From NCBI RefSeq assembly GCF_001651805.1, contig NZ_CP015839.1:310001-374000 (forward strand): DNA of 64,000 nucleotides. Reading direction: 5' to 3'. How positions within the stretch are numbered: position 1 is the first letter of the stretch; every line of letters starts with the position of its first letter. The stretch comes from Marinobacterium aestuarii. Lineage in GTDB: Bacteria; Pseudomonadota; Gammaproteobacteria; Pseudomonadales; Balneatricaceae. Of the stretch, positions 53,558 through 63,593 are shown piece by piece. Below the pieces are notes generated by a model. The model was not told the DNA's origin and made no database searches. It saw only the letters and a list, made by a program, of their open reading frames with translations. The translations under genes and the position numbers were made by a program.

Positions 53558-55330
53558 CTAAAGGCGGCTGACTGCGATCATCTCGCCGCTGGCGGGCGGC
53601 GTGGCGCACTCCCGGAATATGCGTGCCGTACAGTGGTCGCAAACCTCCTGCTTCAGGGCCGCGACGGACTCAGCCAGGGCCGCTTCGGGGGAGTCGTAGA
53701 ACAGTTCCTCGCCGATTCGTTCGAGATAGCCATTGGCGCGCAGTTCATCGATGACTGTCCCCTTGAGGGAACTGAACATCAGCTGGCCACCACGCCGCTG
53801 CAGGCGCCGGGCTTCCTGAATCAGCATCTCGGCGCCAGCGACATCGATGAAGTTGATGCCCTTGCCGATGATCAGCACCCGGTTGGTATCGCCCGTATTG
53901 CTCAGGGTCCGGATACGCTGCTGTATATGGTCGATGGCACCGAAAAACAGCGAACCGTCGATACGGATGATCTTCAGCTGCGGACACTGCTGCAGTGAAA
54001 AGCGCTGGGTGTTCTTGATCTGGCGACGGGGATGGTCGGGAATGGGGGCTACTTCCATCACCGTGGGGCGAGAGGTGCGGCGCAGATAGATTGCCAGCGA
54101 CAGGAAAACACCGATGTAGATGGCGAACTCCAGCTCGACAAAGAGCGTGGCCAGGAAAGTGACGACCAGCACCAGGGCTTCATTGCGGCTGGATTTTATG
54201 ATCTGGCTGATATGGTGAAAATCGATCAGGTTCCAGGCGATCAGCAGTATGGCGCCGGCCATGGCGGGCAGCGGCAGATAGGCGGTCAGCCCCGGTACCA
54301 GCAGGATAATGGCCGCCAGGATGACCGCCGCGAAGATGGCCGCCATGGGGGTTTTGGCGCCGGCGTCGTAGTTGGCACCGGAGCGGGTGAAGGAGCCGGA
54401 GCCGGCGTAGCAGGAGAAGAAACTGCCGACGATATTCGACAGGCCCTGGCCGATAAATTCCTGGTTGCCGTCGATCTGCTGCTGCGAGCGGATACCGATG
54501 GCGCGGGCAATGGATACCGCCTCGATCAGCCCCAGCAAGGCCACGGCAAAGGCACCGGACGTCAGCGACTGCAGGGTTGACGCCGACAGGTCGGGCAGCG
54601 ACAGCGGTGGCAGGGTGCCGGGCAGGGCACCCACCAACGCCACGCCCTGGTCGGCGCCATTGAGCAGCAGGCAGGCGATGCTGCCCACGGCCATGCCGAT
54701 CAGCAGGTGGGGCCAGCGGCGGTTAAATTTGCGCACCAGTAGCGCCGACACCAACGTCAGCAGGCCGATGGCAAGAGAGGTCAGGTTGGTGTCGCCCAGC
54801 TGTGTACCCAGTTGCGACAGGCCCTCGACAAAGGACAGCCCGCTGGGCACGGCTATACCCAGCAGGTGCTTGAGCTGGCTGGCGCCGATGAGGATGGCGG
54901 CACCGGCGGTAAAGCTGATCACCACCGTATGGGATATGAAGTTGACCAGGCTGCCCAGGCGCAGCAGCCCCAGGGCCAGCTGCATCAGGCCGGCCAGCAG
55001 TGTAATCGTCAGTACGGCGCCGATGTATTGCGCTGGGTCCAGATCACCCAGGCCGCTGGCGACACTCATGACGACGATGGAAATGGCGGCGGTGGGGCCG
55101 GAAATCAGGTGTGAGGACGAGCCGAACAGTGCCGCGATAATCGGCGTGATGATGGCGGTATAGAGGCCGAACTCCGGTGGCAGGCCGGCGATAAAGGCAT
55201 AGGCTACCCCCTGGGGCAGCACGATAACGGCACCGGTGATACCCGCGATAAGGTCAGCGGTCAGGGTGCTCTTGTTGAGGTTGCGTCCCCAGCTCAGGAA
55301 GGGGAAATTGAACGACAGCCAGGGCTTCAT
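53558..55330 (-). CDS. SulP-family anion transporter
   Basis: This 590-residue inner-membrane transporter has an N-terminal SulP domain with about 12-14 helices (ADLIAGITGAVIVLPQGVAYAFIAGLPPEFGLYTA, split; GPTAAISIVVMS) and a C-terminal STAS domain (about 440-560) with the nucleotide-site-like FIDVAGAEMLIQEA. Substrates in this family are sulfate, bicarbonate or dicarboxylates; the substrate cannot be named here. A short Cys-containing tail (EVCDHCTARIFRECA) ends the protein. I chose ATG 55330, which begins PWLSFNFPFLSWGRNL just before the first helix. It is divergent from the HdfR-like regulator. Confidence 0.9.
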   Translation of the reverse strand: MKPWLSFNFPFLSWGRNLNKSTLTADLIAGITGAVIVLPQGVAYAFIAGLPPEFGLYTAIITPIIAALFGSSSHLISGPTAAISIVVMSVASGLGDLDPAQYIGAVLTITLLAGLMQLALGLLRLGSLVNFISHTVVISFTAGAAILIGASQLKHLLGIAVPSGLSFVEGLSQLGTQLGDTNLTSLAIGLLTLVSALLVRKFNRRWPHLLIGMAVGSIACLLLNGADQGVALVGALPGTLPPLSLPDLSASTLQSLTSGAFAVALLGLIEAVSIARAIGIRSQQQIDGNQEFIGQGLSNIVGSFFSCYAGSGSFTRSGANYDAGAKTPMAAIFAAVILAAIILLVPGLTAYLPLPAMAGAILLIAWNLIDFHHISQIIKSSRNEALVLVVTFLATLFVELEFAIYIGVFLSLAIYLRRTSRPTVMEVAPIPDHPRRQIKNTQRFSLQQCPQLKIIRIDGSLFFGAIDHIQQRIRTLSNTGDTNRVLIIGKGINFIDVAGAEMLIQEARRLQRRGGQLMFSSLKGTVIDELRANGYLERIGEELFYDSPEAALAESVAALKQEVCDHCTARIFRECATPPASGEMIAVSRL

Positions 55331-55457
55331 GATATATCCGTGAAAGGTCTCGAATCGGCAGGGTAGAGGCTTTTTAATGTCCTGAAAAACGAAAAATACT
55401 GGAAGTAACGGCCAATAAAATCGAACATGGGTTGAATAGCTGCCAAGGAAAGTGCCC

Positions 55458-56294
55458 ATGGATACCCTGTTGCTGAAAACCTTTCTGGAAGTCAGCCGCA
55501 CCCGCAACTTTGGGCGGGCGTCGGAAAACCTCTGTGTTTCGGCCTCCACCGTCAGTGCCCGTATTCGACAGCTGGAAGATCACCTGGGGCTGTCTCTCTT
55601 TACCCGCCAGCACCATCGGATAGGCCTCACCCCGGCAGGCGAGCGCATGGAGCGCCATGCCCGTTTTATTCTCGGTGCCTGGGAGCGGGCCTTTGAAGAC
55701 ACGGCCCTGAGCGAGCGGCACAAGCGACGGCTGGTGGTGGCCGGTGTGGCCAGTCTATGGGACATCTTTCTGCAGGACTGGCTCAGCGGGATCTACCGGG
55801 ATTTCCCGACCCTCGGGCTGCGGGCCGAGGAAAGCACGCCGTTGCGGGTGGTGGAAAAGCTGGAGCAGGGCATGATCGATGTCGGCTTTATGTACGAGCC
55901 ACCGCGCATTCAGAACGTGGCAGTGCAGGAGGTCGCCAGCGTGAGCCTGTCACTGGTGTCCAGCCGGGAAGGGCTATCGGTGGACGCGGCCATTGGCGAG
56001 GGTTATGTCCGGGTGGAGTGGGGTACGACCTTTGCGAGCCTGCACGAAAGCCATTTCCCGCAACGCCTGCTGGCCCGGGGCCGGGTTAATAGTGGCCGAC
56101 TGGCGCTCAATCTGATTCTGCAATGCGGTGGGGCGGCCTACCTGCCGCAGGATATTGTCAAACCACTGCTGGATGAGCAGCGGCTGTTCATCGTGGATGA
56201 GGCGCCGCCCATTGAAATGAAGGCCTATGCCGCCTATGGCCTGCACGGTGAACATCACAAGCTGGTGGCGGATTTGCTCAAGCGACTATCCTGA
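55458..56294 (+). CDS. hdfR: HdfR-type LysR-family regulator
   Basis: This 278-residue LysR-type regulator closely follows the HdfR pattern: DTLLLKTFLEVSRTRNFGRASENL for the HTH, then VSARIRQLEDHLGLSLFTR, ASLWDIFLQDWLSGIY at the start of the effector domain and VRVEWGTTF later. In E. coli HdfR represses flhDC. ATG 55458 is used, 9 nt after AAGGAA; a GTG two codons earlier is too near it. Its regulatory target here may be the divergent sulP gene 127 bp away, an inference from layout. Confidence 0.78.
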   Translation: MDTLLLKTFLEVSRTRNFGRASENLCVSASTVSARIRQLEDHLGLSLFTRQHHRIGLTPAGERMERHARFILGAWERAFEDTALSERHKRRLVVAGVASLWDIFLQDWLSGIYRDFPTLGLRAEESTPLRVVEKLEQGMIDVGFMYEPPRIQNVAVQEVASVSLSLVSSREGLSVDAAIGEGYVRVEWGTTFASLHESHFPQRLLARGRVNSGRLALNLILQCGGAAYLPQDIVKPLLDEQRLFIVDEAPPIEMKAYAAYGLHGEHHKLVADLLKRLS

Positions 56295-56448
56295 AGGAGG
56301 GGGTCCCGGAGGCAGGGCGCAGGAATTCCCCCTAGATATAACCGCGCTCCCCGGGCCCCGTTGTCGGCGCTGTACAGTGCAGCGCCGATACCGATGATAA
56401 TCCAGTGCCATTGGATGCCATCTGATGAGCGCTCGGCTGGAGAAAATC

Positions 56449-57753
56449 ATGTCGGATCAGGACGTATTTCAGGATGCCCTGACGCGCATAAGCGCGCTGG
56501 GCGAAGATGCCGGAATTATGCCGGATGTGGTGGAGTCTCTGTTGCACCCCGTTGCGACCCTGGAGACGACTTTACCGGTTCGTATGGACGACGGCTCGAT
56601 GCGTTACTTCCGTGGTTTGCGCTGCCACTATAATGATGTACTGGGTCCGACTAAGGGGGGTATCCGTTATCACCCACAGGTGACTCGGGCGGAGGTGCAG
56701 GCACTTGCCCTGTGGATGACAGTCAAGTGTGCCGTGCTGGGTCTGCCTTTCGGGGGGGCCAAGGGCGGAGTCGTGGTACAGCCCAAAGAACTATCGCCGA
56801 TGGAACTTGAGCGACTATCCCGGGCCTATATGCGCTCCATGGCCGATTTTATCGGACCCGATACCGACATCCCGGCACCCGACATTTACACTAACTCAAT
56901 GGTGATGGGCTGGATGGCGGATGAATATGAAGCCATCAAGCGTGTCCGCGCGCCCGCCGTCATTACCGGTAAGCCCATACCCCTGGGGGGTAGCCAGGGG
57001 CGGGAAGAGGCGACAGGCCGGGGCGCTTATCTGTGCATTCGGGAACTGGCGGCCAGGCACGACTGGCAGCCCGGCAAGACGCGCGTGGCGATACAGGGAT
57101 TCGGTAACGCGGCCTATCACGTTGCGCGCCTGCTGCAAAATGATGGCTACAACATCGTTGCCATCAGCGATTCAAAAGGCGGCATCTATTCAACAAAGGG
57201 CTTCAACATTGAAAGCCTCTGGGAAGAGAAGCAAAGCAGCAAAAAAGTCCGGGCTGTGTACTGTGAACAGTCAGTGTGCCAGCTGGTGGAACATGAGGAA
57301 ATCAGCAATGACGAGCTTCTGGCGCTGGATGTCGATCTGTTGATTCCCGCCGCGCTGGAGGGCGTGATTGGTCGGCATAACTGCGACAGCATTCAAGCCA
57401 AAACCATTGTTGAGGTTGCTAATGGCCCGATTCGGTCTGAAGTCGAAGCCGGGCTGGAAGAGCGCGGTTTGACCATCGTGCCCGATGTGCTGGTCAACGC
57501 CGGTGGTGTCACCGTTAGCTATTTCGAGTGGGTTCAGAATCGTTCTGGTTATCCCTGGAGCCTTGAAAAGGTGCGGGAAGAGCTTGAAACGCTGATGACT
57601 GCAGCCTTCAATGAAACCATGCATATCGCTGAAACGGAACAGCGAAGCTTGCGAAATGCCGCCTATGTACTGGCCTTGCGCCGCATCGGTGAGGCGGTCA
57701 AGGCCCATGGCACCAAGGAGTACTTTCAAAATGGAGGTATGACTGAACATTAA
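56449..57753 (+). CDS. Glu/Leu/Phe/Val-family dehydrogenase (glutamate dehydrogenase)
   Basis: This oxidoreductase of 434 residues interconverts glutamate and 2-oxoglutarate plus ammonium. The substrate domain has GPTKGGIRYHPQV, the catalytic Lys in LPFGGAKGGV, and DIPAPDIYTNS. The NAD(P) domain has VAIQGFGNAAYHVARLL and DVLVNAGGVTVSYFEWVQN. I chose ATG 56449 because GGAG lies 6 nt before it; an upstream ATG at 56425 lacks a ribosome site. The sequence is of the short, hexameric class. It is not obviously part of an operon. Confidence 0.9.
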   Translation: MSDQDVFQDALTRISALGEDAGIMPDVVESLLHPVATLETTLPVRMDDGSMRYFRGLRCHYNDVLGPTKGGIRYHPQVTRAEVQALALWMTVKCAVLGLPFGGAKGGVVVQPKELSPMELERLSRAYMRSMADFIGPDTDIPAPDIYTNSMVMGWMADEYEAIKRVRAPAVITGKPIPLGGSQGREEATGRGAYLCIRELAARHDWQPGKTRVAIQGFGNAAYHVARLLQNDGYNIVAISDSKGGIYSTKGFNIESLWEEKQSSKKVRAVYCEQSVCQLVEHEEISNDELLALDVDLLIPAALEGVIGRHNCDSIQAKTIVEVANGPIRSEVEAGLEERGLTIVPDVLVNAGGVTVSYFEWVQNRSGYPWSLEKVREELETLMTAAFNETMHIAETEQRSLRNAAYVLALRRIGEAVKAHGTKEYFQNGGMTEH

Positions 57754-57806: not shown

Positions 57807-58544
57807 TCAGGTCTCGTGCACTGCCGAGATCCAACGGTCGGTGTCGACGGCCAGGTAGCCGGTGATTTCCAGCTCCCGGTCCTCCATTACATCCCGCTCC
57901 GGGTGCGCCTGCTGCCAGGCGGCAATGACCTGATCGCGGTGCCGCAGCAGGGCTGCGATCTGTGGCCGATGCAGCCGCATAAACTGAGTAAGCCACTGAT
58001 TCACTGCAAGATTGGGGCGGGCGTGATACACCGCAAAGGCATCCAGCAGGCGGATACTGTCCTCGGCGCTGTACCAGGTCTGATCGGTGACCCAGCGGTT
58101 GGTGGCAAAGAGTCCCACCGGCAGTCCCCAGCTGTCCATGGAGATGCAGATCAGGTGGGCCAGCTCGTCATCGCCTTCGGGCCAGGGCTCGGTGCGGGCA
58201 AAACCTGGCGCCGGTTGTATATCCGCCGGCATGACCGGACGGCGAACAAAGGTGTGAAAGTGGCCATGTTCACCGTCTTCCCGGTGGGCATGGTAGTAGT
58301 ACTGGCAGTGGCTCTGGTCGTCAAACACATCCCCCTCGGGGAAATGGTTCATTTCGTAGAAGGTACCCTGGCCTTTCAGAATCTCGGCCACCACATTGGT
58401 GCCGCCGCGGCTAAGCGCCTTCAGCGCCTGTTGCTGCTGGCCGGCGGCGAGCAGCAGGGCGGCACGCTCGCTGGCGTCAAGTGTTGCAGCCAGTGTGGGA
58501 GGCTGCAGTGCAACCTCAGACATTGCGGACCAATCGGATGACAT
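57807..58544 (-). CDS. Conserved His-rich protein (DUF6969-like), third gene of Cys-repeat locus
   Basis: This 245-residue protein has no signal peptide, so it is probably cytoplasmic. I recognise no enzyme; the pattern resembles what I recall as DUF6969. Residues 79-97 are His-rich: HCQYYYHAHRE then EHGHFHTF, with His79, 85, 87, 93, 95 and 97 in a metal-site-like cluster. A conserved-looking central block follows (DELAHLICISMDSWGLP and LFATNRWVTDQTWY). AGGAAG lies upstream of ATG 58544. The gene starts 77 bp after the Cys-repeat cytochrome gene on the same strand and is probably cotranscribed. Function unknown. Confidence 0.7.
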   Translation of the reverse strand: MSSDWSAMSEVALQPPTLAATLDASERAALLLAAGQQQQALKALSRGGTNVVAEILKGQGTFYEMNHFPEGDVFDDQSHCQYYYHAHREDGEHGHFHTFVRRPVMPADIQPAPGFARTEPWPEGDDELAHLICISMDSWGLPVGLFATNRWVTDQTWYSAEDSIRLLDAFAVYHARPNLAVNQWLTQFMRLHRPQIAALLRHRDQVIAAWQQAHPERDVMEDRELEITGYLAVDTDRWISAVHET

Positions 58545-58621
58545 CGAAACTTCCTGTACAGCCGGTTAAATGACAAAGATTAGCAGGCCAGGCAGCTAAA
58601 AACGCGGCCTGACCCAGGGGC

Positions 58622-59476
58622 TTACATCTGCGCCTTGGCTGCGCAGGGATTCTTGGCGGCGCAGGGGTTTTTAGCCGCGCAAGGGTTCTTTACGGCACAG
58701 GGGTTCTTTGCCGCACAGGGGTTAGCCGCGCAGGGATTGCGGGTCGAACAGGGATTGGCCGCACAAGGGTTAGCCGCGCACGGGTTTTTCGCCGCACAGG
58801 GGTTGGCGGCTGCCGGTGTAAAGCCCTTCTGCACCGCGGAGGTGTAAGCCACCAGGGCGGCCAGTTCCTCACCATCCCAGGCCAGGGGCTTGGCGGCCAT
58901 GGGTTGCAGCATGCACAGCTGGATCATCTCGTCGAGCTGGATCGTCTTCATGCCATAGAGGTTGTCCGCCATGGCGACCCGGTGCGGGAAGGCGTCGGCG
59001 AAGCTCGCCTGAAAGGCGGCATTGCCGTTGTGGCAGGTGCCGCAGGACATGCCATTCGTGCTCAGGCTGGTGTCTTGGTAAAGCTCGGCGCCACGCTCAA
59101 TCAGGGCGACCTGATCCCCCTGGTAGGGGCGGTAATCGGCCGGTCGCTGTATCTGTTTTGCCGCGCAGGGATTCTTCGCCGCTGCAGGATTCGCGCTGCA
59201 GGGGTTGGCTGCACAGGGGTTCGACGCGCAGGGGTTTTTGACTGCACAGGGGTTGGCAGCACAGGGATTCTTCAGGGCGCAGGGGTTTTTCGCCGCACAG
59301 GGATTGCTCTGTGCCTTTACGGCGCAGGGGTTGGCGGAACAGCCGTTTTGAGACGCCTGGGTCAGGGGCGCTGTGGTCAACAGCACCGCCAGCAGGCCCG
59401 AAGAAATATACGCCACGGGCCTGTGCTGACGCGCAATGGCTGCGCTCAGCGCGCGCATAGGGAAGTTTGTTTTCAT
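58622..59476 (-). CDS. Exported cytochrome c flanked by NPC cysteine-repeat arrays
   Basis: This 284-residue exported protein has a leader ending near QAS (residue 42). An N-terminal array (about 46-107) has nine NPC motifs spaced by AA, AAK or similar. A c-type cytochrome domain (about 115-220) has heme motif CGTCH at 145-149 and possible axial Met193 in LQPMAAKPLAWDG. A C-terminal array (225-281) has ten NPC motifs. It has 23 cysteines in all. The leader is paralogous to the one of the next gene upstream. AGGAG precedes ATG 59476. Metal binding by the arrays and electron transfer by the heme are inference. The heme domain type is not assigned to a named family. Confidence 0.85.
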   Translation of the reverse strand: MKTNFPMRALSAAIARQHRPVAYISSGLLAVLLTTAPLTQASQNGCSANPCAVKAQSNPCAAKNPCALKNPCAANPCAVKNPCASNPCAANPCSANPAAAKNPCAAKQIQRPADYRPYQGDQVALIERGAELYQDTSLSTNGMSCGTCHNGNAAFQASFADAFPHRVAMADNLYGMKTIQLDEMIQLCMLQPMAAKPLAWDGEELAALVAYTSAVQKGFTPAAANPCAAKNPCAANPCAANPCSTRNPCAANPCAAKNPCAVKNPCAAKNPCAAKNPCAAKAQM

Positions 59477-59507
59477 TATTATCTCCTCGGGCTCTGGGTT
59501 GCTGCGC

Positions 59508-59858
59508 TTACTTGGTGGCGCAGGGGTTCTTGGCAGCGCAGGGGTTGGCTGCGCACGGATTTTTCACTGCACAGGGGTTGGCGGCGCAGGGATTCGCGGC
59601 AGCACAGGGGTTAGCGGCTGCACAGGGGTTAGCTGCACAGGGGTTGGCAGCACAGGGCTTTTTCAGTGCGCAGGGGTTTTTCGCGGCACAGGGATTGGTC
59701 TGGCTCTTGGCGGCGCAGGGATTGGCGGCGCAGGATGCCTGGGCGACAGGGGCTGTACTCAGCACGGCAGCCAGCAGTGCAGAGGACAGGTAAACCATGG
59801 TTTTTTTCTGCGGTGTAACGGCCTGGGCCAGAGCACGAACACGGAATGAGTTTTTCAT
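59508..59858 (-). CDS. Exported NPC cysteine-repeat protein
   Basis: This 116-residue protein has a leader (about 1-42, ending AQAS) very similar to that of the cytochrome gene downstream. The rest is almost only repeats: eleven NPC motifs and one KPC, each followed by AA, AAA or AAK/AVK/ALK, with 13 cysteines and no other domain. It lacks His, Trp or acidic residues in the repeat, so metal ligation would be through thiolates. AGGAG sits 7 nt before ATG 59858; the longer frame adds a non-leader tail. It starts the locus and is divergent from nuoA. Confidence 0.85.
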   Translation of the reverse strand: MKNSFRVRALAQAVTPQKKTMVYLSSALLAAVLSTAPVAQASCAANPCAAKSQTNPCAAKNPCALKKPCAANPCAANPCAAANPCAAANPCAANPCAVKNPCAANPCAAKNPCATK

Positions 59859-60213
59859 TATTTTCTCCTGTACCCGTTTGTTGCTCTGCACGCTGTGGCT
59901 ATTGGGAAACAGCACACAGTGAGCAGGCAGCCTTTACGGGTGCGAATGTGACTGAGGGGATGGCGGCGCCCCAGCGGCGGGCCAAGTTGTTCGCATGGGG
60001 TAAAAATACCCTTCGCTGCGAAGCTGGAATTCACCTTAGTCTTTGAAACTGAATTGCATCTGAAAGTGATAAAAAAGTTCCGTTGCTCAGTTAGAAAGGC
60101 CCGGGGGCGGCCGGGTTTGGCACCGGCGGCGCACTGGTGGCCCTGGCCGCATGAGCGATTCTGCGGCGGGCCTTCTATAGTTAGGGCGTCGCTCTCCTGC
60201 AAGAGTACAGCCC
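59859..60213. promoter_or_regulatory. Divergent region between Cys-repeat locus and nuo operon
   Basis: This 355-bp gap has no gene. An AT-rich part (about 60035-60100) is the likeliest site of leftward promoters for the Cys-repeat locus. A TATAGT at about 60176-60181 could be a -10 for nuoA, but no matching -35 is clear. Confidence 0.35.
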
Positions 60214-60627
60214 ATGTTCGCGACCTCTTTGACATCTCAGGATACCTGGACGCTGCTGTTCTACACTCTGGCCGTCCTTTTGCTGACGGCTACGATGCTA
60301 GCGGTCTCGCATTTTCTGGGGCCGCGCCATCATGACCGGGCGACGGATGAGCCTTTCGAGTCGGGTATCGTTTCGGCAGGCTCAGCGCGCTTGCGCCTGT
60401 CGATCAACTATTTTGTGGTCGCGATCCTGTTCGTGATCTTCGATCTGGAAGTGATCTTTCTGTATGCCTGGGCCGTTGCCTTCGATGCGGTGGGGCTGGC
60501 CGGTTTTGTCGAGGCGCTGATTTTCATGCTGATACTGCTGGCTGCGCTGCTGTATCTCTGGCGCGAAGGCGCACTGGACTGGGGGCCGCATCAGCACAGT
60601 CTGAAGGACGAGGAGCGCCACCCATGA
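60214..60627 (+). CDS. nuoA: NADH dehydrogenase I subunit A
   Basis: NuoA is a small membrane subunit of complex I with three helices. The 137 residues include the loop [39 protein letters not shown], split, with the conserved Glu and Asp-Glu pair near the quinone cavity. It is the first gene of the nuo operon and overlaps nuoB by 4 bp. Confidence 0.95.
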
Positions 60628-61256
60628 GCTGGCATCTGACAAAGGCCGATACCATTGCCACGGACCGCGATGGCGCTTACGAGGACATGGTTCGCCAGAG
60701 CGTGCTGACGGCCAAGCTGGAACAGCTGTTGTCCTGGGGGCGCAAGCACTCGGTATGGCCGTTTAACTTCGGTTTGTCGTGCTGTTACGTGGAAATGGCG
60801 ACGGCCTTCACGCCACGTCACGACATCGCTCGCTTCGGCTCCGAGGTGATTAGGGCCACGCCGCGCCAGGCCGACCTGATGGTGATCTCCGGCACGGTGT
60901 TTCTGAAAATGGCGCCGGTGATACAGCGGTTGTACGAGCAAATGCTGGAACCCCGCTGGGTTATATCGATGGGGTCCTGCGCCAACTCCGGCGGCATGTA
61001 CGATATCTACAGTGTGGTGCAGGGTGTCGACCGTTTCCTGCCGGTGGATGTCTATGTGCCGGGCTGCCCGCCGCGTCCCGAAGCCCTGCTGCAGGGGCTG
61101 ATGCTGCTGCAGGAGTCGATCGGCCAGGAGCGGCGTCCGTTGAGCTGGGTCGTCGAGGGACACAAGGTTTACCGGGCCCCGCAGGACAGCCAGCGCGACC
61201 GCCTGAGAGAACAGCGTCGGCAAGCGACGACCCTGCGGTCACCGGACAGCGTGTGA
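60624..61256 (+). CDS. nuoB: NADH dehydrogenase I subunit B
   Basis: NuoB carries the terminal 4Fe-4S cluster N2 that reduces quinone. All ligands are visible: the tandem Cys in [12 protein letters not shown], Cys in [10 protein letters not shown] and Cys in [11 protein letters not shown]. Its 210 residues are typical. It is on the cytoplasmic face of the membrane. Confidence 0.97.
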
Positions 61257-61268
61257 TGGATCAAGCCC

Positions 61269-63050
61269 ATGCCCTCTCAGCCTGAAGATGACAGCCTGGC
61301 CCTGAACGGGGTAGACCGTTCACCCCTGCAGCCGGCGCTGCAATCCCGCTTCAAAGAGGGCGCCCTGTGCGCGCAATCCACCGTTGACGGTATCGAGACC
61401 CTCTGGGTCGAGCGCGACCAGCTCAGGCCGCTACTGCAGCATCTGCAGCAGGGCCAGGGGTTCGAGATGCTGTTCGATCTCACGGCCATCGACGAACGCC
61501 AGCGTGAGCATCGCGACGGCCAGCCGCCGGCGGATTTTACCGTCGTTTACCAGTTGCTCTCGGTCAGCCGCAATCGGGATATCCGGATCAAGGTGGCCCT
61601 GTTGCAGCCGGCACTGTCGCTGCCCAGCATCTGTGATATCTGGCCCAACGCCAACTGGTACGAATGTGAAGTCTGGGACCTGTTCGGCATTCGTTTCGAC
61701 GGCCACCCGCACCTGCGCCGCATTTTGCTGCCCCCCACCTGGGAAGGGCACCCGCTGCGCAAGGACCACTACGCCCGTGCCACCGAGGTGGAGCCGTTCA
61801 GCCTGACTGAAGAGAAGCAGGATACCGAACAGGAAGCACTGCGTTTCCGGCCCGAAGACTGGGGCATGCAGCGCCAGAGCGAGGACAGCGACTTTATGTT
61901 CCTCAATCTGGGGCCCAACCACCCCAGCGTGCACGGGGTCTTCCGTGTGGCGCTGCAGCTGGATGGCGAGGAAATTATCCAGGCGGTGCCCGATATCGGC
62001 TACCACCACCGTGGCGCCGAGAAAATGGGTGAACGCCAGGCCTGGCACAGCTACATCCCCTATACCGACCGCATTGATTACCTCGGCGGCGTGATGAACA
62101 ACCTGCCCTATGTGCTGGCTGTCGAGCAACTGGCCGGCATTCAGGTGCCGCCGCGTGCCCAGGTGATCCGGGTGATGATGGCCGAGCTGTTCCGCATTGC
62201 CAGCCATCTGGTGTTCTACGGCACCTTTGCCCAGGATGTGGGCCAGATGTCCCCGGTGTTCTACATGTTTGCCGATCGCGAAAAGCTGTTTGGCATTGTC
62301 GAGGCCATCACCGGCGGGCGCATGCACCCGGCCTGGTTTCGCATCGGCGGTGTGGCCCAGGATTTGCCCTTGGGCTGGGATCGGATGGTGCGGGAGTTCA
62401 TCGACTACCTGCCCGGCCGGCTGGCCGAGTACGACGCCATGGTGATGCGTAATGGCACGCTGCAACGCCGTACCCGGGGCATCGGCGTCTACAACACGGC
62501 CGAGGGCCTGGCCTGGGGGGCCAGCGGACCGGGTCTGCGGGCCACCGGGCTGGACTGGGACCTGCGCAAAAAGCGGCCCTACAGCGGTTACGAGCAGTTC
62601 GACTTCGACGTGGTTACTGCCAGTAACGGCGATTGCTACGACCGCTGCCTGGTGCGGGTCGAGGAAATGCGTCAGAGCCTGCGCATCATCCGCCAGTGCC
62701 TGGACAACATGCCAGCGGGGCCCTACAAGGCGCGGCATCCGCTGACCACGCCACCGCCCAAGGACCGTACCCTGGCCGATATCGAGACGCTGATCCAGCA
62801 TTTCGTCAACAGCAGCTGGGGGCCCGTCATCCCGCCCGGTGAGGCGATGGTGGCGATCGAGGCGACCAAGGGCATGAATGCCTACTACCTGGTCAGTGAC
62901 GGCTCGACCCAGTCGTACCGGACCCGCATCCGCACGCCGTCTTTTGCCCACCTGCAGATGATTCCGCTGCTGAGCCGGGGGCTCTTTGTCAGCGATCTGA
63001 TTGCCATTATCGCCAGTATCGATTTCGTCATGGCCGATGTGGATCGGTAA
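61269..63050 (+). CDS. nuoCD: NADH dehydrogenase I fused subunit CD
   Basis: This fusion combines the 30-kDa (NuoC, about 1-190) and 49-kDa (NuoD, about 210-593) subunits of complex I. The C part has [38 protein letters not shown], split. The D part has [30 protein letters not shown] and the C-terminal FVMADVDR. The fused form and 593-residue length are as in Pseudomonas and E. coli relatives. It forms the quinone cavity with NuoB. Confidence 0.96.
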
Positions 63051-63068
63051 ACAGAGGGGAGGTTGGAC

Positions 63069-63593
63069 ATGAGCGCAATCTTTGCCCGCGACCGCGGCTG
63101 GTCGAATAGCTATCTGAGCCAGGCCGAGCGCGAGAGCATCGAGCAGGAGGCCCAGGCCTATCCGCAGCGCGATGCACTGTGCATCGAGGCATTGCGGATC
63201 GTGCAGCAGCACCGTGGCTGGGTGTCCGACGACAGCGTGGCGGCGATTGCCGACTACCTGGGCCTGGGGGCGGCCCAGGTCGATGCGGTGGCGACCTTCT
63301 ACAACCTGATTTTTCGCCAGCCGGTGGGGCGCCAGGTGATCTACCTGTGCAACAGCGTGACCTGCTGGATGCTGGGCTGCGATGCCCTCAGGGCCCGGAT
63401 TGGCGAGGAGCTGGGCATCGACTTTGGCCAGACCAGCGCGGACGGCGAATACACGCTGCTGCCCATTACCTGCCTGGGTGACTGCGACCATGCGCCGGCG
63501 CTGATGATCGCTGACCGGCACCACCATGACCTGGACCCCGACAGCCTGGCTGCACTGCTGCAGCCCCCGGCGTCCGGCCAGGCGAAGGAGTAG
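63069..63593 (+). CDS. nuoE: NADH dehydrogenase I subunit E
   Basis: NuoE holds the 2Fe-2S cluster N1a in the NADH-input module. The 174 residues contain a thioredoxin-like fold with cysteines in LCNSVTCWMLGC and ITCLGDCDHAP. ATG 63069 lies 6-7 nt after GGGGAGG; a TTG two codons upstream is less likely. nuoF follows 3 bp later. Confidence 0.95.
   Translation: MSAIFARDRGWSNSYLSQAERESIEQEAQAYPQRDALCIEALRIVQQHRGWVSDDSVAAIADYLGLGAAQVDAVATFYNLIFRQPVGRQVIYLCNSVTCWMLGCDALRARIGEELGIDFGQTSADGEYTLLPITCLGDCDHAPALMIADRHHHDLDPDSLAALLQPPASGQAKE

Follow-up and report, generated by a model that had tools for sequence, protein, structure and literature searches.

Cysteine-array genes and DUF6969 form a conserved unit in Marinobacterium aestuarii and other bacteria, with a possible role in carrying reactive sulfur

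Several described systems resemble parts of a three-gene locus (genes A, B and C) found in a 64,000-nt stretch of Marinobacterium aestuarii (contig NZ_CP015839.1; the whole stretch is called the window here, and coordinates are window positions). Genes A and B encode proteins with signal-like N-termini and arrays of repeated cysteine motifs, while gene C encodes a leaderless protein of DUF6969, a Pfam family of unknown function. By analogy, the nearest functional counterpart found is the group of MNIO-modified, Sec-exported, cysteine-containing ribosomally synthesized and post-translationally modified peptides (RiPPs), including bufferins, as presented in excerpts of an MNIO landscape paper (PMC12452194). 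In both cases a cysteine-rich protein with a signal-like start is paired with a cytosolic protein that has conserved metal-type ligands, and the cysteine-containing partners are varied. However, DUF6969 has no profile similarity to MNIO, and modification of the array is a proposal made here. The SoxA/TsdA cytochromes (PF21342) share with protein B the fold, a CxxCH motif and the position of a distal cysteine, but B has one heme motif and flanking Cys arrays, and the position of TsdA Arg119 is occupied by Met or Phe. SoxYZ and other Cys-arm sulfur carriers would be alike in the role proposed below, a thiol holding sulfur near a Cys-ligated heme, an arrangement that PMC4423706 gives for SoxAX-SoxYZ. 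These carriers have a single reactive cysteine, the arrays many. Metallothioneins and copper storage proteins have a comparably high cysteine density, from which the arrays differ by their NPC-AAK repeats, by fusion to a heme domain and by the fact that A matches nothing in Pfam or NCBIfam at E <= 1. A domain related to the Blh/TIGR01244 sulfur transferases is itself the head, that is, the domain attached to the array, in two genomes (G444 and G489), although this head falls below the TIGR01244 cut-off, has a signal-like start and carries an array only beside DUF6969 (two of seven genomes).

The unit is widespread and apparently undescribed. The first-pass annotation had known of no system with this composition, and limited literature searches agree: nothing was found on DUF6969, in coverage that mostly excludes subscription papers and preprints; NPCAA, NPCAAK and Asn-Pro-Cys returned no such system by title and abstract start; queries combining cysteine-rich and TIGR01244 terms or YeeE and pentaheme terms gave nothing relevant, and those on ArsS or DUF547 neighbours nothing useful. 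Our preferred explanation, to which we assign a probability of about 40%, is that DUF6969 prepares the Cys array before export and that the array carries reactive sulfur in the periplasm.

All three genes lie on the minus strand, with gaps of 31 bp between A and B and 77 bp between B and C, and have the following features.

59508..59858, minus strand: gene A, a 116-residue Cys-array protein with a signal-like N-terminus and no recognised catalytic domain
59511..59732, minus strand: Cys array of A (residue 43 to the end), by motif count
58622..59476, minus strand: gene B, 284 residues, signal-like N-terminus, in the order Cys array, heme c domain, Cys array
59165..59341, minus strand: N-terminal Cys array of B (residues 46-104), modelled with a predicted local distance difference test score (pLDDT) mostly below 50
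58811..59155, minus strand: predicted SoxA/TsdA-type cytochrome c domain of B (residues 108-222), by PF21342 and Foldseek
59030..59044, minus strand: CGTCH heme attachment motif of B (residues 145-149), by sequence
58913..58915, minus strand: Cys188 codon of B, by alignment at the position of the TsdA Cys heme ligand (Cys123)
58637..58804, minus strand: C-terminal Cys array of B (residues 225-280), by motif count and model
57807..58544, minus strand: gene C, a leaderless DUF6969 protein of 245 residues (PF22308)
58254..58292, minus strand: H85-x-H87...E92-H-G-H95-F-H97 core of C, by conservation
58155..58157, minus strand: His130 codon of C, invariant

Protein A contains 11 NPC motifs, one KPC motif and 13 cysteines, and protein B contains 19 NPC motifs, 23 cysteines and a single CxxCH. 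Shuffling the residues of each protein 2000 times gave at most three NPC motifs for A and two for B, and these are the only frames in the window with at least three [NKST]PC motifs. PC motifs in A are spaced by 6 residues (six times), 5 (four times) or 9 (once), the window arrays as a whole having mostly 5 or 6, and Met and His are almost absent from them. Residues 1-106 of A match B at 68% identity, so that A looks like B minus the heme domain. Judged by eye from their N-termini, A and B are probably exported and C is probably cytosolic; C has HAH at 85-87 and HGHFH at 93-97 and no evident signal sequence. The coordinates, strand and gaps in the first-pass annotation, together with its counts of 12 NPC/KPC motifs in A and 19 NPC in B and its leaderless third protein with HxH followed by HGHFH, all held on recounting, and the heme c domain that it named is real by both profile and fold.

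The array and DUF6969 genes are a conserved unit. Within the genus, A, B and C matched at one place in four of seven Marinobacterium genomes, and at E <= 0.001 neither the three remaining genomes of the genus nor the 31 further genomes among the 38 relatives searched gave a match; matches to A among the 38 were confined to the four array-bearing genus genomes, and the DUF6969 profile was found in four of the seven. A wider scan of 84,980 species, queried with an alignment of nine DUF6969 proteins, gave at least 552 tblastn-confirmed relatives among 591 matched stretches, the best 80 of which are loci L045-L124. An open reading frame (ORF) that contains four or more [NKSTDGA]PC motifs is present within 3.5 kb at 60 of these 80 loci (same strand at 54, upstream at 50, within 300 bp at 43) and at 44 of the 51 that have at least 4.5 kb on both sides, while a single such ORF occurs in the 512,283 aa of stop-to-stop frames beyond 3.5 kb. 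The homologues are therefore neighbours elsewhere, the check that the first-pass annotation had proposed for its locus. For the 19 loci lacking a local array, whole genomes were searched with an array protein and 16 gave a match (18 of 21 including the positive controls L106 and L113, both matched); the best matches counted reached E 7.5e-7 at their weakest, and repeats of low complexity can make matches of this kind look stronger than they are. Other Cys repeats also adjoin DUF6969, namely NPCGPKK, CCAAEGC and RPNCLK, and at L050 DUF6969 is found with a heme homologue whose array is mostly degenerate. In a sample of 299 genomes from the phylum, DUF6969 is found in 11, with a Cys-repeat gene at or near the locus in eight (G000, G107, G124, G140, G239, G281, G329 and, by a short match about 1.7 kb away, G284). 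In G118 the DUF6969 and array genes lie near the ends of separate contigs, and G053 and G200 have no Cys-repeat gene within about 1.5 kb, the sequence length examined.

Linkage is also seen within the window's order, sampled as 293 genomes with the heme domain called at E <= 1e-12. The heme domain is found in 10 genomes, DUF6969 in 10 and both in seven (Fisher p 4e-10, not corrected for relatedness). All seven genomes with both have Cys arrays (G000, the window genome, and G107, G444, G489, G514, G565 and G601), compared with none of the three that have the heme domain without DUF6969. In two of the latter, G175 (L131 1489-2385) and G533 (L185 1171-1884), acidic, Cys-free repeats of the EGEA type occupy the place where the array of the heme protein would be, and next to the heme protein of G175 lies a small EGEA protein whose start is signal-like (L131 2894-3178), mirroring A; in the third, G123, there is no array in the 131-residue heme-domain frame. 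Conversely, the three genomes with DUF6969 and no heme-domain match all have adjacent Cys repeats: an NPC array alone in G585, a RPNCLK-repeat protein with a signal-like start directly upstream in G530 (L189 3489-3797), and in G527 (L190 4471-5251) an array gene without a heme domain beside a truncated DUF6969, apparently a joint decay of the two genes.

A second, unrelated head gives the same pattern. Second DUF6969 copies in G444 and G489 adjoin two YeeE half-proteins and a lipoprotein-like fusion of an array with a TIGR01244/Blh-like domain (in G444, TIGR01244 E 3e-12 and 46.6 bits against a cut-off of 85.85; BLH_phosphatase E 1e-7). A search of the 293 genomes with this fusion (E <= 1e-20) found seven genomes. 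Both genomes in which DUF6969 is adjacent have the array; the remaining five (G465, G545, G380, G569 and G372, of which G380 is 83% complete) have the TIGR01244-like domain with neither an array nor DUF6969. Pooling the two heads, all 9 cases with DUF6969 have the array, compared with none of the 8 that lack DUF6969 (Fisher p 4e-5; the cases come from few lineages, are not corrected for relatedness and count G444 and G489 twice, once per head). Within the order, the array follows DUF6969 rather than the head.

The heme head of B matches SoxA-TsdA_cyt-c (PF21342) in the middle of the protein, with E 2e-7 and 31.4 bits against a Pfam cut-off of 27. An AlphaFold2 model of B (overall pLDDT 66, predicted template modelling score (pTM) 0.54) gives the heme domain pLDDT values mostly above 90 and the arrays values mostly below 50, and in a Foldseek search TsdA and SoxA were the best matches (probability 1.00, E 1e-3 to 1e-2), with a root-mean-square deviation of 2.5-2.6 Å over 94-99 columns for two SoxA entries and about 9 Å for TsdA. 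By profile score and by fold ranking, B thus has the SoxA/TsdA cytochrome fold. The distal Cys position (Cys188 of B, corresponding to TsdA Cys123 in a weak alignment with E about 1) is invariant in 25 of 25 aligned proteins, and this conservation suggests that Cys188 may take the place of the distal heme ligand. In TsdA, according to the sections of PMC4423706 consulted, Cys123 is a heme ligand and forms an S-thiosulfonate intermediate.

Other heads are found at the 80 loci, where 60 array-cluster proteins comprise 35 of the SoxA/TsdA type with the distal Cys motif, 13 with a C-terminal CxxCH and 12 with no CxxCH. The C-terminal CxxCH class was taken as cytochrome P460 type, two examples having been tested against Pfam, one above and one below the cut-off. 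Spacings of 6 and 3 residues account for 338 and 193, respectively, of the 815 PC intervals shorter than 15 residues in these proteins. The array is a portable module, carried by unrelated heads (SoxA/TsdA-type heme, P460-type heme or TIGR01244-like) or by no head. At L086, L093, L105, L113 and L117, arrays are fused to the P460-type heme domain and an FGE-like gene is nearby (PF03781 in the tested L113 copy); the FGE-like cluster is found anywhere in 12 of the 80 loci.

Protein C is a clear DUF6969 member (E 2.2e-79, 266 bits against a gathering cut-off of 27). Nine divergent members, found by profile or protein search with no residue pattern, have in common P69, Y83, H85, H87, E92, G94, H95, F96, H97 and H130, as well as F146, N149, V152, I196, R203 and D204. 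Across 82 aligned sequences H67, D72, D75, H85, H87, H130, N149, R150, N182 and R203 are invariant, the invariance of E92 and G94-H97 in this larger set being fixed by the scan pattern that found those loci. In an AlphaFold2 model of C (pLDDT 88, pTM 0.89), H85/H87 and H95/H97 are on consecutive strands (80-90 and 92-101) and H130 is on a third (128-136), a placement that would suit a metal site. No convincing solved relative was found for DUF6969, the best profile match having E 0.27 and the best Foldseek match in the PDB E 0.28. A relationship to MNIO was considered and rejected (hhalign against five MNIO proteins, probability 0.2%), and the candidate enzyme of the window unit is PF22308 rather than MNIO (PF05114). 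Long DUF6969 frames in L051, L064, L071 and L122 were not counted as gene fusions, since by eye their extensions look out-of-frame upstream of the true start.

The proposal that DUF6969 prepares the array for sulfur carriage follows two lines of reasoning. Because DUF6969 is kept with a Cys array across changes of head, and is absent in the order where the array is missing or acidic, the array would be its substrate or cargo; and because DUF6969 is leaderless, it could meet the array only before export. DUF6969, a putative cytosolic metalloprotein, would modify the Cys array covalently or load it, ahead of Sec export. Once in the periplasm, the array would accept and carry reactive sulfur (persulfide or thiosulfonate) made or discharged by the attached head, with electrons passed on to c-type cytochromes; where a lineage has YeeE, entry of the sulfur into the cytosol may follow. 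Of the window proteins, A would act as the free carrier and B as the carrier with its own redox head. Export, metal binding, modification and sulfur as the cargo are all steps that we infer. The fuller statement, that DUF6969 is a new class of cytosolic metalloenzyme, unrelated to MNIO, which prepares export-bound Cys arrays, and that the array is a portable sulfur carrier on unrelated redox or transferase heads, with order genomes that lack DUF6969 having no array or acidic repeats, is tentative and on balance doubtful.

At the 80 loci, genes on one strand separated by at most 250 bp were treated as operon-like chains. With one representative tested per cluster, these chains contain an array-heme protein in 37 cases, an array only in 12, YeeE (PF04143) in 11, DUF302 in 10, FGE-like in 10, a multiheme cytochrome in eight, a cupredoxin-like protein in seven (by eye, with no Pfam match) and MNIO in two; unannotated genes occur in 38 of the chains. 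Anywhere in the 80 loci, YeeE is found at 14, extracytoplasmic function (ECF) sigma factors at 17, MNIO at five (PF05114 E 2.8e-103 for the L091 member), ArsS at seven and TIGR04283 at 11. At L100 (303-4369) an array gene, DUF6969 and MNIO-, DUF2063- (by eye) and DoxX-cluster genes stand in a row on one strand, with no ORF of at least 60 aa selected between DUF6969 and MNIO. Loci L052, L058, L067, L070, L073 and L077 harbor arsenosugar-type glycosyltransferase clusters (TIGR04282, TIGR04283) together with ECF sigma or zf-HC2 genes beside DUF6969.

Two papers (PMC11073785, PMC11582611) describe YeeE proteins as importing thiosulfate or sulfur. Loci L013 and L014 have the order YeeE halves, NPC-type array, DUF6969, rhodanese and ArsR-type repressor, and L015 the order YeeE, array, DUF6969 and rhodanese. 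The rhodanese is directly downstream of DUF6969 in L014 and L015 (PF00581) and in L013 (by similarity to L014), and the best NCBIfam match of the L014 repressor is BigR (E 1e-29, 102 bits against a cut-off of 155). Among the seven genomes of the genus, exactly the four with arrays also have one YeeE subtype, which matches the profile over its full length (E about 1e-53), at a separate locus, after a DUF302-like gene (by eye) in the two that were read; the other three have weaker, partial matches to YeeE paralogues, as do some of the four. The SoxA/TsdA-type heme, the TIGR01244-like heads, the rhodaneses, the BigR-like control and YeeE point to reactive sulfur, and on these sequence grounds the neighbours and the heme type favour sulfur over metals. 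As for the metal or redox system suggested in the first-pass annotation, the redox-type heme domain is real, whereas the evidence leans away from a soft metal, and no observation speaks for heme iron as the cargo.

The alternative closest to that suggestion is a periplasmic buffer for soft metals or metalloids, in which the arrays would bind ions such as Cu(I) or As(III), thiols or metal would be held in the right redox state by the heme domain and DUF6969 would serve as an array maturase or a metallochaperone. Growth under copper stress is reported to improve with bufferins (PMC12452194), MNIO genes lie within about 7 kb in five of the 80 loci (two in the same operon-like chain), arsenic-type clusters (TIGR04282, TIGR04283, ArsS, LMWPc and, by eye, a methyltransferase) are found in 20, and NPCxM/His arrays stand beside an ArsM-like gene (by eye) in family f46. 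Yet among the annotated neighbour clusters no metal transporter recurs in the DUF6969 chains, where YeeE, DUF302 and multiheme cytochromes do; two of the array heads resemble sulfur enzymes; and the window arrays are nearly free of Met and His. We consider such a buffer somewhat unlikely. DUF6969 may instead leave the array alone and, as a metal-dependent enzyme of the cytosol, oxidise or transfer the sulfur that the array delivers, in some lineages through YeeE. Its leaderless start, its invariant His, Glu and Asp of a kind typical of enzymes, the adjacency of YeeE in several lineages and the downstream rhodanese genes are consistent with this, but seven of 11 DUF6969 genomes have no YeeE at E <= 1e-20 (two of these, G239 and G329, have YeeE half-genes beside DUF6969), and DUF6969 tracks the array: G175 keeps the head and YeeE, has an acidic array and has no DUF6969. 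This explanation is unlikely. That the array is a passive low-complexity tether, linked to DUF6969 by operon history only, is very improbable. The arrays are indeed modelled without confidence, as for disorder, and vary in length, EGEA repeats replace them in some genomes and L050 retains DUF6969 with its mostly degenerate array; against this, within the order array and DUF6969 are present or absent together on either of two unrelated heads, their pairing holds across several repeat sequences, and in 16 of the 19 genomes that lack a local array a match lies elsewhere.

Several observations weigh against our preferred reading, that DUF6969 prepares a sulfur-carrying array, beginning with the MNIO/bufferin-type genes and arsenic-type clusters just counted. 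YeeE is enriched among DUF6969 genomes and is not general: in the 299-genome sample the full type (E <= 1e-20) is found in 27, comprising four of 11 with DUF6969 and 23 of 288 without (p 0.011). The Foldseek search with the B model gave no match at E <= 0.001, and the suggestion that DUF6969 binds a metal comes from conservation only. Arg119, four residues before the Cys, is stated in the excerpted PMC4423706 to be invariant in TsdA and SoxA; at its position the array cytochromes have Met in 33 of 35 and Phe in two of 35 (the motif pattern used allowed only M, F or Q and, with the P460 class, covered all 48 CxxCH members), and the best-aligning SoxA domain (57-150 of 1h31) has Met there too. 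Met or Phe at this position makes ordinary thiosulfate dehydrogenase activity unlikely, and B was therefore not filed as a thiosulfate dehydrogenase; the array head is probably none. Three DUF6969 genomes (L063, L073 and L114) have no array match genome-wide. Arrays also exist without DUF6969. In the 299-genome sample B matches 71 genomes at E <= 0.001, compared with 11 that have DUF6969, and 45 of the 71 belong to f46, without DUF6969, although several f46 matches are weak (up to E 9.5e-4) and many of its genomes are incomplete. Among the three f46 loci that were read, the arrays at L135 (1492-2130) and L141 (1471-2106 and 2258-2500) are of the NPCSM/NPCDMKKH type, Met-rich with some His, and occur with the heme domain and a multiheme cytochrome, L141 having in addition the ArsM-like methyltransferase gene; L127 of the same family has NPCAA repeats (genome 57% complete). 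G328 and G059 likewise carry NPC arrays in the absence of DUF6969; YeeE is present in G328, and G059 has, by eye, an ECF sigma factor and a multiheme cytochrome. A strict dependence of arrays on DUF6969 is thereby ruled out, and DUF6969 is not always needed.

Around the window locus, purine-rich, ribosome-binding-site-like stretches precede all three starts (by eye). Upstream of A is the following region.

59859..60213, no strand assigned: divergent region upstream of A, before a plus-strand gene (nuoA-like by eye), by sequence

A sigma-70-like promoter scan of this region returned no promoter-like site, and three terminator-like sites in the promoter/terminator scan were not above shuffles. 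The flanking genes at 53558-55549, 55452-56294, 56425-57753 and 60214-63593 resemble, by eye, those for a SulP-type transporter, a LysR regulator and a glutamate dehydrogenase, and a nuo operon, respectively, and L045 has genes of similar lengths and order around its locus. A role in anti-phage defence was set aside, A, B and C having no match to PADLOC models at E <= 0.01.

The locus joins a Pfam family of unknown function, with no confident fold match in the PDB, to exported-looking Cys arrays, and the co-variation of array and DUF6969 makes the idea of maturation directly testable. If DUF6969 does prepare the arrays, it would represent an MNIO-independent route to cysteine modification before export, and at the cell envelope the arrays would act as carriers of sulfur or soft metal with many sites, a type new to biology.

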